Shown: positions 13,137-20,783 of the stretch, one piece after another | Layout of the letters: each line of letters opens with the position of its first letter | Position numbering within the stretch: position 1 is the stretch's first letter | IMG/VR virus record: IMGVR_UViG_3300007511_000188 | Span: 1 to 21,122 of that record | Strand: one strand, 5' to 3' | Origin: a virus | DNA: 21,122 bases | Position numbers and translations under genes: made by a program | Notes under the pieces: model-generated | The model's input: the letters and a program-made list of their open reading frames with translations, nothing else | What the model was told of the DNA's origin: nothing | Database searches by the model: none

Positions 13137-13408
13137 GATTCGGCGGGCCTTGCGGCATTTTGCACGATTCCCGCCCCGTGTGCATCGAGGACGCTCGTCC
13201 CGGCCCCGGTCGCCTCGAGGAGAGCGACGCCGGCTCCGGACGCGGAGAGCGAGGCCACGGACGCCCCGTCTCCGGCCGCGAGGACGATCCCGGCGCCGTC
13301 CGCGACGACCTGCCGCGAAGGGGCGGAGGGGTCGAACGGGGTCACCGGGCCCGGATTGAGGGTCGACCCGATGTCCGTCCCGGACGCGTTGAGACCGTGA
13401 GAGATCAC
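13133..13408 (-). CDS. Small repeat protein of the fibre module
   Basis: A 91-residue protein starting at GTG 13408, whose first bases overlap the stop of the 952-residue protein (GTGA), and whose stop overlaps the next ATG (ATGA). Those two couplings are the main reason to call it real. After a polar N-terminus with STLNPGPVTPFDPSAPSRQ come about five imperfect 10-residue repeats from residue 34: VVADGAGIVL, AAGDGASVASL, SASGAGVALL, EATGAGTSVL and DAHGAGIVQN. The recurring GAG tripeptide and alternating hydrophobic residues suggest a small beta-solenoid or fibre element. No family is recognised and no signal peptide or membrane helix is evident. Confidence 0.65.
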   Translation of the reverse strand: MISHGLNASGTDIGSTLNPGPVTPFDPSAPSRQVVADGAGIVLAAGDGASVASLSASGAGVALLEATGAGTSVLDAHGAGIVQNAARPAES

Positions 13409-16263
13409 GCCGGAGATCCTCGCTCATGCTGGACCCCGAAGAACGCGAGGACCTCCGCGCCGTTCGTCGTCGTGAGCTCCGCGCGGTAGAGCTCGGTCGT
13501 TCCGGCCTGGTCGTAGACTACGAGCTCCCGAGGAGGCCCGGCCGTGAAGTCGATCCGGATACGGTTCCGCAGGACCGCGAGGGCCTCCGCCGCGGACCCG
13601 GAGACGGTCTCGTGAGCCGCGAGAGCTTCCGCCCAGACCGCGTCCGTCACGGACGCCCTCGACACGAGCTGGTCGTCGACGATTGTCGTCCCGGTCGACC
13701 CGTCGACGACATCGCCGACCCCCGAGACGTGAACAGTCCCCGCAGAGCATGTTCCGTCGAGCTCGACGGACCCGGTGATCGTCCCAGTGAGAGAGTCCGT
13801 CGGGTGATCCATATTCTCGACGACGACGTCTCCGCGGTATCCGATGGCGACGACGTTCGAGAAGAAGGCCCCGGCGGCCGGGAAGATGAACCTCGAGGGG
13901 TTACCGGACCCGACGTCTCCGAGGGCCGTGTAGCAGTCGACGAGCAGGGCCGGTCCGCCGTCGATGAACTCGATCGAGAACCCGACCCCGCAACGGTAGA
14001 GCGTGCCCGCCAGCCCGGTAACAGCGGACCCGGAGAAGCCCAGGTAGCAGTCGACGAAGGTTGGGTATTCGCCGGGAGAATAGGCGACCGCACCTTGAAT
14101 CCGACACGCAGTAAAGGTTGTTCCAGATACGTCTTGGCCGTTGAGGGCAATCGTGGTCCCGAAGTTTTGGGTACATACGCCATCAACAGCAAACCCAGCC
14201 AGCGGCGCGGCCAGCGTGACGGAGCCGCAAATGTGAAGCGACTTGACGCCCAAGGCAGCGGCGAGGACGAGCGCGTCCGCCATACCGTCGACCGGGTTTT
14301 CCTCGGTCCCGTTGACACCCAACACGGACCCGGGCGACCCCGCTCCGACGTTGATCCAGATCTTCCGCCCGTAGAGGCTCGCGAGGCCGGCCCGCCCCGA
14401 GGTCCCCGAGGTCGTGTGGCCGGAGAGCGGTTCGTCCATCGTCGCGGAGGCCGCATCCGCCGCCGTGTGGCTCGACCTCGACGAGACCGACGCGTCGAGA
14501 TTGGACGAGACGAGAGGCTCCATCGTCGACGTATCCGCCAGGATGTCGTCGAGCTCCGCATCGACGGATCCGGCCGCTGGGGCGCCGATGGTCGGGGCGA
14601 GCTTCATCGCGTCCCGGACCTGTTGAGAGGTGAGGCCTCCGCCGCCCCCGCTCGTCCATGGACCCGGGCCTCCGGCCGTGGTGTCCGCGAGGATCGCCGT
14701 GACATCGGCCGGGAGGTTCGCCGCGTCGAGCTCCGAGAGCCTCGCGGACGTGACCTCATCGAGAGCCGCGGCCCTCGCGACCGTGATCCTCGTCTCGAGC
14801 GCGTTCGTGTCCGCCTCGATCTCGTCGAGATGGTCGTCGACCGATCCGGCGGCCGGCATCCCAGCGGAGGGCGCGAGCTTCATCGCGTCCCGGATGTCCT
14901 GGGGTGCGAGGCTCCCGACCCACGACCCGGCGCCATGAGAGGCGGAGAGAACGGCGTCGACGTCCGCCGCGCTATGGCTCGACCTGGAGGAGATCGTCGC
15001 GTCGACGTTCGTCGAGACGAGAGGCTCGATCGCCGCAGTGTCCGCCTCGATCGTGTCGAGGGCCTCGTCGATGGATCCAGCGGCGGGAGCTCCGGCGGTC
15101 GGGGCGAGCTTCATCGCATCGCGGATCACCTGGGGCGCCGTCGCAGCCCCGGCCCAGGAGCCGGCCCCGTGGGAGGCGGTTAGGACCGTGTCAACGTCCG
15201 CGGCCGAATGGCCGCTCCGCGAGGAGATAGCCGCGTCGATGTCGGCTCCGGCGAACGGGGTCGCGTCGCTCAAGATCGCGTCCCTGATCTCAGCGGCCCC
15301 GGTCGCGGCTACCGCGGACGCGTCGACCGCGTCGACGACCAGGTCCATCGCGTCCCCTGCGACCGCGAACCCGGTCGCCGACAACCACGAGCCGCCGCCA
15401 TGGCTCACGGAGAGGGTCGTGTCGACATCCGCCGCGGAGTGAGAGCTCCGGGAGGAGACGGTCGCGTTGAGATTCGTCGAGACGAGCGGCTCCATGGTGG
15501 ACGTGTCCGCCTCGACTGTGTCCAAGTGAGCGTCGATCGACCCGGCCGCCGGAGCTCCGGCCGTTGGAGCCAGTTTCATCGCGTCCCGGATTACCTGCGG
15601 AGCGGTCGCCGCCCCGGCCCACGAGCCGGCGCCATGGCTCGCCGTCAACACCGTGTCGACATCCGCCGCGGAGTGGCTCGACCTCGACGAGATCGCGGCG
15701 TCGATGTTCGCCCCAGCGAACGGGATCGAGTCCGAGAGGATCGAGTCCCGGATCTCCTCCGCTCCCGTGGTCGCGACGGCGGACGCATCGACCGCGTCCG
15801 TCACGAGATCCATCGCATCACCTGGAACCGCGAAGCCGGTCGCGGTCGTCCAGGCTCCGGCGCCGTGGGTCCCGGAGAGCTCCGCGTCGATGTCCGCCGG
15901 CAGATCGTAGGCGGAGGCGACAAGCTCGACGACGTCCTGGGCGACCGCGGTCACGGTCCCGGAGACCGCATACTCCGCGACGAGATAGTCCGTCGCCGCC
16001 GGGATCGTGAGGCTCGAGAGGTCGACCCGGAGGACATACTTCCCGGGAGCGTTCGTCGCGGAGATCTCCACCATCGCGGACTGACGGGTCGTCCACCCGG
16101 CGGCCTTGAAGGTCCCGTCCGCAAAGTCGAGGTAATCGCCGTCCGTCGCCCCGTCACGGAGAGCGACCGCGCACGTGAGGCCGGTCGTCCCTCCTCCGCG
16201 GGCGACGAGAAGCTCCAGAGGGAGATCGGTCGAGGTCCTCTCCGCTGTGATCGTCGTCGACAT
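13405..16263 (-). CDS. Large repeat and beta-helix fibre protein (952 aa)
   Basis: The start is ATG 16263, which overlaps the upstream TGA (TGATG); an extension to 16530 is Arg-rich shadow sequence overlapping the previous gene. Domain order: a BppU-like N-terminal beta domain (about 1-115) with LTCAVALRDGATDGDYLDFA; a repeat region (about 125-600) built on a 155-residue period, each period containing FAVxGDAMDL, SSRSxHSAADVD and IRDAMKLAP blocks; a linker; a predicted parallel beta-helix (about 635-850) with Cys at 679, 697, 720, 739, 758, 777; and a C-terminal beta domain (about 870-952) with ELVVYDQAGTTELYRAELTT. The plan resembles long phage fibres and decoration fibres. Its place inside the head-gene cluster suggests a capsid-attached fibre, which is inference. 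Part of the beta-helix DNA has foreign codon use. Confidence 0.88.
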   Translation of the reverse strand: MSTTITAERTSTDLPLELLVARGGGTTGLTCAVALRDGATDGDYLDFADGTFKAAGWTTRQSAMVEISATNAPGKYVLRVDLSSLTIPAATDYLVAEYAVSGTVTAVAQDVVELVASAYDLPADIDAELSGTHGAGAWTTATGFAVPGDAMDLVTDAVDASAVATTGAEEIRDSILSDSIPFAGANIDAAISSRSSHSAADVDTVLTASHGAGSWAGAATAPQVIRDAMKLAPTAGAPAAGSIDAHLDTVEADTSTMEPLVSTNLNATVSSRSSHSAADVDTTLSVSHGGGSWLSATGFAVAGDAMDLVVDAVDASAVAATGAAEIRDAILSDATPFAGADIDAAISSRSGHSAADVDTVLTASHGAGSWAGAATAPQVIRDAMKLAPTAGAPAAGSIDEALDTIEADTAAIEPLVSTNVDATISSRSSHSAADVDAVLSASHGAGSWVGSLAPQDIRDAMKLAPSAGMPAAGSVDDHLDEIEADTNALETRITVARAAALDEVTSARLSELDAANLPADVTAILADTTAGGPGPWTSGGGGGLTSQQVRDAMKLAPTIGAPAAGSVDAELDDILADTSTMEPLVSSNLDASVSSRSSHTAADAASATMDEPLSGHTTSGTSGRAGLASLYGRKIWINVGAGSPGSVLGVNGTEENPVDGMADALVLAAALGVKSLHICGSVTLAAPLAGFAVDGVCTQNFGTTIALNGQDVSGTTFTACRIQGAVAYSPGEYPTFVDCYLGFSGSAVTGLAGTLYRCGVGFSIEFIDGGPALLVDCYTALGDVGSGNPSRFIFPAAGAFFSNVVAIGYRGDVVVENMDHPTDSLTGTITGSVELDGTCSAGTVHVSGVGDVVDGSTGTTIVDDQLVSRASVTDAVWAEALAAHETVSGSAAEALAVLRNRIRIDFTAGPPRELVVYDQAGTTELYRAELTTTNGAEVLAFFGVQHERGSPA
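14944..15873 (-). repeat. Two tandem 465-bp coding repeats in the fibre gene
   Basis: Units 15409-15873 (residues 131-285) and 14944-15408 (residues 286-440) are diverged copies in register. The His in THGAG, SHGGG and SHGAG falls at residues 133, 288 and 443, and the other SHGAG His at 210 and 365. Each unit itself has two related halves of about 77-78 residues. A degenerate partial copy continues to about residue 486 and another at about 540-600. Confidence 0.75.
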
Positions 16264-16853
16264 CAAAAGGCCAAATAGGGGGCGGCGGCGGCCTGGGCGT
16301 CCGCGACCGAGGTCGCCGCGATCACGCCGTCGATGTATGGTTGGGCCAGAGCTCGCTCCGCGAGGACCTCGCCGCTGATAGCGCCGACGATCCCGGACAG
16401 ATCGGCCGATGTCGTGATCGTGTAGGTCGCCCTCTCGTCGTAGGTCGTGACCGTCATCGGATACGGGGCGAGCCCGAGAGAGTCGAGCGAGACGAGGGCC
16501 GACCAATTCGCCTGGCTCTCCGCCTTGCACGAGAACAGGAGGCCGGAGCCCGGCGGGTACTCCGCGAGGATCTGCGAGTCGAGGCGAGTCCCGTCCCGGT
16601 GGGCCTTGATCTCCGCGACGAGCCGCTCCTGGACGATCGGTAGGCTCGAGTGCGCGGACACGAGAGCATCACAGCGGACTTGCTCCGCCGCGGACGGCGT
16701 CGCGGCGAAGAGGAGCATGAACGAGGATCCGGCCCGGTCGACCCCGAGGAGAGCCGTCGCGATCGCCGGGTCCTCGACGATCTGGGCGTGGAGGAGCTCG
16801 ACATCAAGGGTCCCGTCGCTCGTGTCCGCGGTAGTGTAGCTCGGGAATGCCAT
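16263..16853 (-). CDS. Hypothetical protein of the fibre module
   Basis: A 196-residue protein of unrecognised family: MAFPSYTTADTSDGTLDVEL, then LLHAQIVEDPAIATALLGVD, a hydrophobic strand SSFMLLFAATPSAAEQVRCD and ALVSAHSSLPIVQERLVAEI (about 64-83). A second half has beta strands (YPMTVTTYDERATYTITTSA) and a helical end. ATG 16853 overlaps the TGA of the previous gene (TGATG); a TTG one codon upstream is also possible. The 'A...v..D.lV..H' stretch is reminiscent of small proteins that accompany fibre genes in other phages, but this is not enough for a family. The gene stop overlaps the start of the 952-residue fibre protein, so a chaperone or adaptor role for that fibre is a hypothesis. Confidence 0.72.
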   Translation of the reverse strand: MAFPSYTTADTSDGTLDVELLHAQIVEDPAIATALLGVDRAGSSFMLLFAATPSAAEQVRCDALVSAHSSLPIVQERLVAEIKAHRDGTRLDSQILAEYPPGSGLLFSCKAESQANWSALVSLDSLGLAPYPMTVTTYDERATYTITTSADLSGIVGAISGEVLAERALAQPYIDGVIAATSVADAQAAAAPYLAF

Positions 16854-18276: not shown

Positions 18277-19539
18277 TTACCCGAAGCGACGAGTCGACCG
18301 GAGCGGCTCCCGGCCGCGAGCTCGCGCCGCCTTCTCCGCTGCGATCCGGGCCGCCTCCGACGAGTCGATCCTCGGCTCGCTCGCGTCGGTCTTCGGGACG
18401 CTCGTCCCTCCGGCGGCGACCGCGATCGCTTCCCGCGTCGCGTCCCTCTCGTCTCGTCGCTCCGGAGCGGCCTCGACGATCGCCTCGAAGCGGCCGTTGA
18501 TGTAGTCGTCCGAGCGGTCCGCCGCGTCGAACTTCTCGTCCCTCGAGACGAGGACCTCGCAGCGGATCTCGCGGTCGGACTTCCCGTCGAAGCGAGCCTC
18601 GTCCCCGAGGACCTTCTTCGCGGCGGCCTCGAGGGCGACACGAGAGCGAACGGCGGCGGCGATCGCGGCCGGATCGGTGGCGGCGTCGAGCCGCTCCTTC
18701 GTCTCCGCGAGCTCGCTCGTCGCGGCGTCGAGCTTCCCTTCCGCCGTGTCCGCTCTCGCGGTCGCCTCGGAGATCGCGCTCTCGAGCGCGGAGACGTGCT
18801 TCTCGATGACCTGGGCGGCCTGGGCCGGGACCTCGAGGTCGAGGCCGTCGATTCGGATGTTCTTCGTGCTCACGGTCGGATCCTTTCCGGGCCTCGCGCC
18901 CGTCTCGTCTTCGGTCATGGGTAGCACGGCGGCCGGGTGGAGGGCGAGAATCCGCGCGAGCTCCGCGTCGAACCTCTCGACCCCGATCTCCGCGCGGAGG
19001 TCCTCGGAGAGCCCGTCGAGATGGAGGGAAACCTCCGGCCCGGCTCGACCCCACCCTCGAGGCCCAAGGGCGACGTGGTTGTATGTGATCTGGCGCTGTA
19101 CTCCGTCATATCGCTCCCCGTTGAACTCGCCCGGGGTCGCGTCGATCCGGCAGGTGTACCCGGCGGAGAGCTCGCGAGCGTCGCCGCCCTCGACCTTCGA
19201 GATCATCCGGGCGTCCTGGACGACGAGGTCCGAGCGGAGAAACCTGCCGTCCTTTCGAGGGTTCACGACGAGGCCGACCTGGAGGTCCCGGACGTTCTCG
19301 GGCGAGACGAGCTCGGAGGGATGCCGGTCGGTCACCGGAGCGAGGGCGAGAGAGCGGATCGAGTCGTCCCGGAAGACCTCCTCCGGATGCCGGAGCTCGC
19401 GGAAGGTCGACCCGTCTCCGCGCGTGTAGTGGAGGACCCCGACCCGGGTCACGTTCCCAGGGACGAGGAGGAAGCCCTGCGGAGTCCGAGAGCTATCGCC
19501 CAGGCCTCCGACGTCGAACCGGATCGCGCGTTCGGTCAT
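18277..19539 (-). CDS. Prohead protease with scaffold domain (DUF2213 family)
   Basis: A 420-residue protein with an N-terminal protease (about 1-165) and C-terminal scaffold region. Candidate catalytic residues are H73 in APVTDRHPSELVSPENVR, S125 in ARELSAGYTCRIDATPGEFN and H155 in ITYNHVALGPRGWGRAG. These match the 'P.t..HP', 'ELS.GY' and 'NH.A' motifs of DUF2213 proteases. Residues about 225-300 form a coiled coil (ESAISEATARADTAEGKLDA), followed by an Ala-rich charged tail ending in REPLRSTRRFG. The combination would drive capsid assembly and then be cut out. It is the first minus-strand gene after the inverted plus-strand gene. No strong ribosome site precedes ATG 19539. Internal ATG at codon 208 lacks a visible site too. 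Confidence 0.88.
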   Translation of the reverse strand: MTERAIRFDVGGLGDSSRTPQGFLLVPGNVTRVGVLHYTRGDGSTFRELRHPEEVFRDDSIRSLALAPVTDRHPSELVSPENVRDLQVGLVVNPRKDGRFLRSDLVVQDARMISKVEGGDARELSAGYTCRIDATPGEFNGERYDGVQRQITYNHVALGPRGWGRAGPEVSLHLDGLSEDLRAEIGVERFDAELARILALHPAAVLPMTEDETGARPGKDPTVSTKNIRIDGLDLEVPAQAAQVIEKHVSALESAISEATARADTAEGKLDAATSELAETKERLDAATDPAAIAAAVRSRVALEAAAKKVLGDEARFDGKSDREIRCEVLVSRDEKFDAADRSDDYINGRFEAIVEAAPERRDERDATREAIAVAAGGTSVPKTDASEPRIDSSEAARIAAEKAARARGREPLRSTRRFG

Positions 19540-19613
19540 CTCGTGAGCCTACCGGAAAACGCCACGGAGAGCCCCCGGGCCCAAAAAAAACGGGGAACGG
19601 ATCGCTTTACCGC

Positions 19614-19642
19614 TAGACACAAGTCTGCGCGGAGGTTATGTT
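19614..19642 (+). promoter_or_regulatory. Sigma70-like promoter for the plus-strand gene
   Basis: TAGACA (19614-19619, 5/6 to consensus -35) is followed by exactly 17 bases and TATGTT (19637-19642, 4/6 to consensus -10). The predicted start of transcription is about 2-4 bases before ATG 19652, so the mRNA may be nearly leaderless. The GGAGGT at 19631-19636 lies within the promoter spacer and 15 bases before the ATG, too far for a standard ribosome site. A short inverted repeat AGAC-ACAA-GTCT overlaps the -35 box, and an A8 run lies at 19583-19590. Confidence 0.5.
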
Positions 19643-19651
19643 GGGGTCTCA

Positions 19652-20608
19652 ATGGCCACAACGCTTCACGCCGCGACCGCAGCAATCGCCCTTTACCTCG
19701 CCCAAGCGTTCGCCGGATGCTTCGGACGCTTCCGGTACTTCGCGAGCGGGTCTAACCGGTCCGCTGAAATCCGAGGGCTCTCCCGCTCCGGATGCGACTT
19801 CGGGGTAGCGGCGCCGGAAATGATGACCCGACGCGGAGCGCCGAAGGCCGCCATGGACGATCTGGTCGAGGCCGCGAAGAACCCGGGCGTCCGCTGTTTC
19901 GTCGACTCCGGCGCCTTCTCCGAGGTGGACTTCACGAGCGAGGGCCCGGTTTGGCCGGCGCCGATGACCCCCTCCGGCTGGCGCGCGGTTTTCCGCTGCT
20001 ACGAGATCGCCGCCCAGGCCTTCGGCGGCCGCTGCTACGTTGTCGCACCCGATCGGGTTGCGGACCAGGCGGAGACCCTTCGCCGCCAGGAGCGATACCG
20101 CCGACACGTCCGAGCAATCGCCGCCCACGGAGCCCAGATTCTCGTCCCCGTCCAGAAGGGGTCCCTCCCGATGGCGGACTTCTACGCCGCGGAGCTCGTG
20201 ACACTCGGCCTACCCGCGGACCAGGTGATCCCGGCAGTCCCGATGAAGAAGGACGCGACGAGCGTCGAGGACCTCGTCGACTTTGTTCGCGCCACCCAGC
20301 CGACCCGGCTCCATCTCCTGGGACTCGGCCCGAAGCGACGAGGCCCGAAGGGCTATGACGCGGTCGTGGCGGCCGTCCTCGCCGTGTGCCCGGGATGCGA
20401 GATCATGAGCGACTCGGTCTTGATGGCCGCGATTAGCGGGCGCGGAAACGGCTCGAAGATCACCGGGAAGCGCCGGGCCTTGACCGTAGCTCTCGACCAG
20501 ATCCGGATGCGACGTCCCGACCTCGGGGCCCAGGATGCCCGAGAGCTCGCGATCCGGCTCCTCGCGGCGGCGGCCCGGCCTTCCGGCGCTATCGCGGCGG
20601 CGGCCTAA
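19652..20608 (+). CDS. DpdA/TGT-like deazaguanine transglycosylase
   Basis: A 318-residue protein and the only plus-strand gene. Its motifs follow those of tRNA-guanine transglycosylases and the DNA-modifying DpdA relatives, TIM-barrel enzymes that swap guanine for a 7-deazaguanine. D85 in RCFVDSGAFSEVDF lies where TGT has its 'DSGGFQ' Asp. D134 in VVAPDRVADQ, Q168 in LVPVQKGS (like 'VQGG') and LHLLGLGPKRR (about 220-230) follow in order. D254 in CEIMSDSVLM is the likely nucleophile, followed by SGRGNGSK. The zinc-binding CxCxxC..H of tRNA TGT is absent after it, which favours a DpdA-like role in modifying phage DNA. This is inference. The gene has its own promoter, convergently overlaps the head-side minus-strand gene by 20 bases, and would be antisense to late readthrough. 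Confidence 0.7.
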   Translation: MATTLHAATAAIALYLAQAFAGCFGRFRYFASGSNRSAEIRGLSRSGCDFGVAAPEMMTRRGAPKAAMDDLVEAAKNPGVRCFVDSGAFSEVDFTSEGPVWPAPMTPSGWRAVFRCYEIAAQAFGGRCYVVAPDRVADQAETLRRQERYRRHVRAIAAHGAQILVPVQKGSLPMADFYAAELVTLGLPADQVIPAVPMKKDATSVEDLVDFVRATQPTRLHLLGLGPKRRGPKGYDAVVAAVLAVCPGCEIMSDSVLMAAISGRGNGSKITGKRRALTVALDQIRMRRPDLGAQDARELAIRLLAAAARPSGAIAAAA

Positions 20609-20783
20609 CCGGCCCCGCTTGACAGCCAGGATCGCTCGTCCGGAGCTCCCGCTTCTCCACCGGGTCGTAGCAGATACAGGAGCACGGTTCGGACCGGACA
20701 TAGTCGAACTCGAGGACCTCGCAGACGTCCCGGCACTCGGTCCGGAGACCGAGGAGGAGGAGGAGGAAGCCGAGCGGGATCAC
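20589..20783 (-). CDS. Small Cys-rich hydrophobic protein coupled to the head gene
   Basis: A 64-residue protein starting at GTG 20783, which overlaps the TGA of the minor head gene (GTGA). A hydrophobic N-terminus IPLGFLLLLLGL (2-13) suggests membrane insertion or a short signal. Then come six Cys in a short acidic stretch: TECRDVCEVLEFDYVRSEPC, CSCIC and one in the tail DPGCQAG. There is no clear lipobox. I do not recognise the family. The upstream in-frame ATG at 20825 would overlap the head gene by 46 bases and is less likely. Its 3' end overlaps the DpdA-like gene on the opposite strand by 20 bases. A lysis, envelope or redox-linked role is not demonstrated by anything seen here. Confidence 0.55.
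   Translation of the reverse strand: MIPLGFLLLLLGLRTECRDVCEVLEFDYVRSEPCSCICYDPVEKRELRTSDPGCQAGPVRPPPR

Follow-up and report, generated by a model that had tools for sequence, protein, structure and literature searches.

Phage 7-deazaguanine systems described so far mostly come with their own precursor genes, and the DNA made during infection is what they modify. Their base-exchange enzymes are the phage DpdAs (9g, Dp-1 and mycobacteriophage type; phrog_887), which are phage-borne relatives of TGT. In the 9g enzyme, H196 is a conserved DpdA residue that is missing in DpdA2 (Vibrio phage nt-1), a divergent subfamily of phage DpdAs detectable by profile methods only, and singleton DpdAs possibly dependent on host preQ0 are known as well (PMC6884629). 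In bacteria, the Dpd system combines dpdA-dpdC with a restriction operon; the product of dpdC converts dPreQ0 to dADG (PMC12839542), and its Pfam domain is reported to be DUF6884 (PMC11888242), a distant YaaA relative (PMC11701544). A further point of comparison is given by the polyvalent proteins, predicted to be injected together with DNA (Iyer 2017, PMC5512222).

Sequence comparisons place the gene analyzed here in what would be a separate, uncatalogued DpdA-like branch, often found within polyvalent proteins of phages and plasmids. We consider it likely that the product of the gene is a base-exchange enzyme of the DpdA-like kind, belonging to this new branch, with D254 as nucleophile, which would use a 7-deazaguanine of the host and serve antirestriction. 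The window, that is, the whole stretch of 21,122 bp that was analyzed, is the entire IMG/VR virus record of a contractile-tailed phage according to its gene content (Pfam and PHROG), and its minus strand holds genes matching tail sheath, tape measure, baseplate wedge, DUF2213 protease and MuF families. Among the tail genes we also noticed a 1,041-aa ORF (13405-16530, minus strand) whose PHROG match is at chance level only. The last 1,316 bp of the window are 99.7% identical to a second viral contig (L002), which continues rightward with the remainder of the MuF gene, followed by genes for portal and terminase and by part of a DNA methyltransferase gene, the last ones named by reading the sequence. 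This N4/N6 methyltransferase fragment (L002:5469-5729, minus strand, motif DPFGGSGSTG) lies next to the terminase genes of this virus and is a possible second DNA-modification gene. The features of the locus are collected in the table.

Table. Features of the DpdA-like locus, with window coordinates
Feature	Position	Strand	Basis
Head maturation protease, DUF2213	18277..19539	-	PF09979 1.3e-40, phrog_530 5.2e-88
Divergent gap between protease start and DpdA-like gene; one sigma-70-like consensus match 19614-19642 (+)	19540..19651	.	Match not functional evidence
DpdA/TGT-like gene, 318 aa, ATG start	19652..20608	+	ORF, coding bias, homologues, AlphaFold2 model, hhalign to phage DpdA
D85 codon, in VDSGAF; pairs with TGT DSGGFQ and 9g DpdA D72	19904..19906	+	Invariant in 67; profile alignments
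D134 codon, in APDRV; pairs with 9g DpdA D114 and TGT FDE aspartate	20051..20053	+	Invariant in 67; profile alignments
Q168 codon, in VPVQKG; pairs with TGT VQGG motif	20153..20155	+	At least 90% conserved; profile alignment
H221 codon, in HLLGLG; pairs with 9g DpdA H196	20312..20314	+	Invariant in 67; profile alignment
D254 codon, presumed nucleophile; pairs with 9g DpdA D215	20411..20413	+	Invariant; profile alignment without confidence cut
Convergent gap between DpdA-like gene and end of MuF gene	20609..20779	.	Sequence
MuF-type minor head protein, cut at window end, continued in L002	20780..21122	-	PF04233 1.9e-21

The original prediction had described this ORF as the only plus-strand gene, embedded between minor head and protease genes, and both statements held. 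Codon-position G+C of the ORF is 0.71/0.54/0.83, like that of the minus-strand genes, and this pattern is absent from the two ORFs antisense to it. When the window was scanned in 300-bp steps, a sustained strong plus-strand coding signal appeared only here, which makes it the sole gene of the window that is clearly on the plus strand; the MuF and DUF2213 protease genes on either side run in the opposite direction, on the minus strand. The promoter that had been ascribed to the gene found no support: what is present is a single 9-of-12 consensus match (TAGACA-17-TATGTT), which does not count as promoter evidence because its -10 box stops 10 nt upstream of the ATG and the match overlaps the sole Shine-Dalgarno-like GGAGG. 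Base composition likewise gave no sign of the recent acquisition that had been supposed (69.5% versus 68.1% G+C).

Searched alone, the window protein had no match in Pfam, NCBIfam, PADLOC or PDB (single-sequence searches), a silence that is uninformative because 9g DpdA likewise lacks a real Pfam match; tblastn of the protein against 50,697 phage records found nothing either. Five distant homologues were found with a DNA pattern encoding VPVQKG, and a search with their alignment (A1) yielded 53 viral and 30 bacterial loci, so that this motif-guided route gave about 80 related loci. Forty-eight plasmids carried homologues; most were from Pseudomonas, and 18 were typed as conjugative. Conservation figures are based on a family alignment of 67 members (A2), in which G51, D85, S86, G87, A88, V131, P133, D134, H221, L223, G224 and D254 are invariant and Q139 and Q168 are conserved in at least 90%. 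Sequence-profile searches of PDB with either alignment revealed no relative. The PHROG family named queuine tRNA-ribosyltransferase (phrog_887) was matched by 27 of the 67 members (best 1.4e-9), the window protein alone not being among them, and 34 of 67 matched the unnamed phrog_15826. At the level of sequence, the DpdA link thus runs through the homologues, the window protein itself matching no family.

Profile comparison (hhalign) aligned the family with seven known phage DpdAs at a probability of 93.9 and E 1.6e-7, against E 0.2 or worse for reversed and shuffled decoys, while canonical tRNA-TGT reached E 0.011, the same as known DpdA versus TGT; by this measure the family appears much closer to DpdA than to tRNA-TGT. 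Together with the PHROG matches of the homologues, the fold comparison and the conserved catalytic positions, this bears out the proposed DpdA/TGT-like assignment. D85, D134 and H221 of the window protein pair with D72, D114 and H196 of 9g DpdA, and D254 pairs with D215 outside the confident part of the alignment; the aspartates of the DSG motif (D85) and of the nucleophile motif (D254) are both invariant and DpdA-aligned (n = 67). Identity between the family and phage DpdA is about 20% in the profile alignment, and where phage DpdA has PxxHxGE the family has VPVQKG, with a glutamine. H221 is invariant in the family, in contrast to DpdA2, which lacks the conserved histidine (DpdA2 was compared by description only). 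With bacterial TGT the family shares the fold and the motif order DSGxF, D, VQxG, LxGxG, but the similarity is weak and the window protein is shorter and without the zinc site. The TGT-type motif series noted at the outset is present in the window protein (D85, Q168, H221-L-L-G224-L-G226, D254), as is the noted lack of a zinc-site Cys after the nucleophile, no Cys occurring beyond D254 when the sequence is read directly. This missing site does not discriminate, because the seven known phage DpdAs have no invariant Cys in the alignment either.

The supply of the base was considered next to these similarities. No preQ0/G+ synthesis gene is present in the window or L002 (about 25 kb of an incomplete genome), and FolE, QueD, QueC and QueE of the 9g type are absent from all family-locus flanks searched. 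Virus records with the family, which may be fragments, gave QueC in 1 of 50 (weak and partial) and QueD in 0 of 36, so that the lack of precursor genes is to be read as a tendency, not as proof. By contrast, six of seven records of classical DpdA phages, a small and hand-picked set, have QueC. Bacterial carrier genomes matched QueC in 15 of 16 cases, 13 strong and two weak or partial. Considering the rarity of QueC and QueD in the family phages and the presence of QueC in carrier bacteria, the host is the probable source of the base. The original prediction had named missing precursor genes, together with unmodified G in virion DNA, as evidence against itself; since hosts can supply preQ0, the absence of precursor genes would not weigh against the function proposed here.

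Family phages without QueC and QueD might instead point to a DpdA-like enzyme whose base, inserted or removed, is not preQ0, or which reverses host DNA modification, its substrate being phage-made or host-derived, and the TGT-like Q168 in place of the DpdA histidine motif in the pocket would agree with this. We regard such an activity as improbable, considering that hosts carry QueC, that singleton DpdAs possibly dependent on host preQ0 have precedent (PMC6884629), and that fusions to DUF6884/DpdC fit preQ0. These fusions were found in five distinct proteins (L029, L051, L056 and the plasmid proteins L133 and L135), which join to the DpdA-like domain the domain reported for dpdC (PMC11888242). 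The arrangement differs from the bacterial Dpd system in being a single polypeptide of phages and plasmids, with no restriction operon in the loci read, bacterial DpdA having been compared by description only. DUF6884 (PF21818) occurs in 5 of 46 virus records, and most family members are not fused to it. A DUF6884 sequence search of PDB gave no relative.

The AlphaFold2 model of the window protein (pLDDT 89.6) showed, in agreement with the expectation, a TIM-barrel TGT fold. TGT was the best fold match with VIA (human TGT, Z 14.2 over 256 residues, rmsd 5.2; archaeal TGT, Z 13.8), and TGTs occupy nearly all of the best 50 VIA rows; an aldolase reached Z 13.3, as TIM barrels resemble one another. 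In a viral fold library, a polyvalent ART protein came first and a phage queuine transferase second. The fold, and a Q168 equal to the TGT glutamine where 9g DpdA has HxG, could be expected of a TGT paralogue acting on host tRNA and not on DNA, for example by altering decoding during infection. This reading has slightly less in its favor than that of another base and we think it unlikely, because the family profile resembles DpdA far more than tRNA-TGT, no family member lacks the DpdA histidine, the TGT zinc site is missing, and the fusion partners described below are DNA-directed. Speaking against the DNA-directed reading, tRNA or free nucleotides may be what the homologues act on.

Having weighed these alternatives, we return to the DpdA-like enzyme that would use a host 7-deazaguanine, for which the architecture of the homologues is the most telling clue to function. 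Twenty-five of the 67 homologues lie within ORFs of at least 550 aa (maximum 5,639 aa), the window protein being a single, stand-alone domain. Fusion partners include C5 DNA methylases (L035, L055, L079), InPase, a pyrophosphatase (L038, L061, L075, L079), ART-PolyVal (L053, L076), LPD1 (L115), LPD38 (L068, L076), ddrB-ParB joined with a helicase (L066), a zeta toxin domain (L076) and PAPS reductase (L053), with a sub-threshold LPD22 match in L035. Moreover, an N-terminal domain common to five phage homologues (L004, L010, L041, L050 and L058; alignment A4) matches the N-terminal part of ScoMcrA, a type IV restriction enzyme (PDB 5zmm, 4.9e-14); Pfam does not report this domain for L004 and L010. 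A role in DNA modification and antirestriction is plausible from these sequences, and it is strengthened by the fusions to DUF6884, DNA methylases and the ScoMcrA-type domain.

ART-PolyVal, InPase, LPDs, ddrB-ParB and methylases are also the partners seen in polyvalent proteins (Iyer 2017, PMC5512222), from which the window gene differs in standing alone. The text of that study (PMC5512222) makes no mention of TGT, queuine, archaeosine or deazaguanine, and the DpdA-like domain seems absent from the domains it lists. Considering that ART-PolyVal and zeta-toxin domains occur in the same proteins as the DpdA-like domain, one could imagine an effector that damages host nucleic acid through base exchange, as other polyvalent effector domains would; this is very unlikely, as partners such as methylase, DUF6884 and pyrophosphatase suit a role in protection or metabolism and DpdA relatives protect DNA (PMC6884629). 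That the gene encodes a decayed or fortuitous TIM-barrel protein without activity, as a single sequence without family match might suggest, has a negligible chance given catalytic positions invariant across 67 diverse members and a confident model.

In the base-exchange mechanism that we favor, D254 would act as the nucleophile displacing guanine from DNA, and a 7-deazaguanine (preQ0 or a derivative) from the host pool would be inserted into incoming or replicating DNA, so that restriction or other defences that sense DNA would act poorly on the modified phage DNA. Where the enzyme is a module of a polyvalent protein, as in part of the family, it would probably enter the cell together with the DNA; in the window phage it would be encoded among the head genes by an inverted cargo gene that stands alone. 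A more specific and rather doubtful version is that of a third kind of DpdA, an injected polyvalent module borne by phages and conjugative plasmids, some with DpdC-type conversion in the same chain, which would hypermodify incoming DNA with the preQ0 of the recipient before restriction. Unlike the classical phage DpdAs, this branch has records mostly without precursor genes, many of its members lie in polyvalent, presumably injected proteins, and some are fused to the enzyme that follows in the pathway. Provided that it is active, the branch would represent a precursor-free, early-acting DNA hypermodification common to phages and plasmids. The family members offer a ready list of proteins for assay, and a domain unrecognised by Pfam, NCBIfam and PADLOC would gain a name.

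Two individual ORFs illustrate the range of architectures. In one (L055:8546-12079, plus strand), the DpdA-like domain is combined with a C5 DNA methylase and a match to Mom below threshold, so that a single chain might serve three types of DNA modification. The other (L016:4426-7293, minus strand), of 956 aa, joins the DpdA-like domain to a zincin-like motif (SHELAH) and to linkers of the form GPxGGxWADAxHTxxW, which are repeated.

The original prediction had also regarded the gene as a moron, and its mobility is supported by a 45-kb relative (L032) with similar terminase, portal, MuF and protease genes. There, 44 bp separate MuF from protease with no gene between them, and the homologue is found upstream of the terminase, at a distance of about 2 kb; within this phage group the gene has therefore moved, as fits a cargo gene. 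By codon bias, this homologue and the late genes share one strand. Longest-ORF gene calls misread the strand in L032, and a tally of neighbour strands based on them was therefore discarded. Among plasmids, the homologue and a relaxase gene are no more than about 6 kb apart in pG20 (L116) and pRK1-3 (L133) and not in four others inspected; a location in plasmid leading regions would agree with the first two and not with the other four. In the tree, the window protein shares a clade with L037, L044 and the fused form L016 (97% SH-aLRT), and parsimony requires at least 11 switches between fused and stand-alone forms, four of them forced by starred branches.
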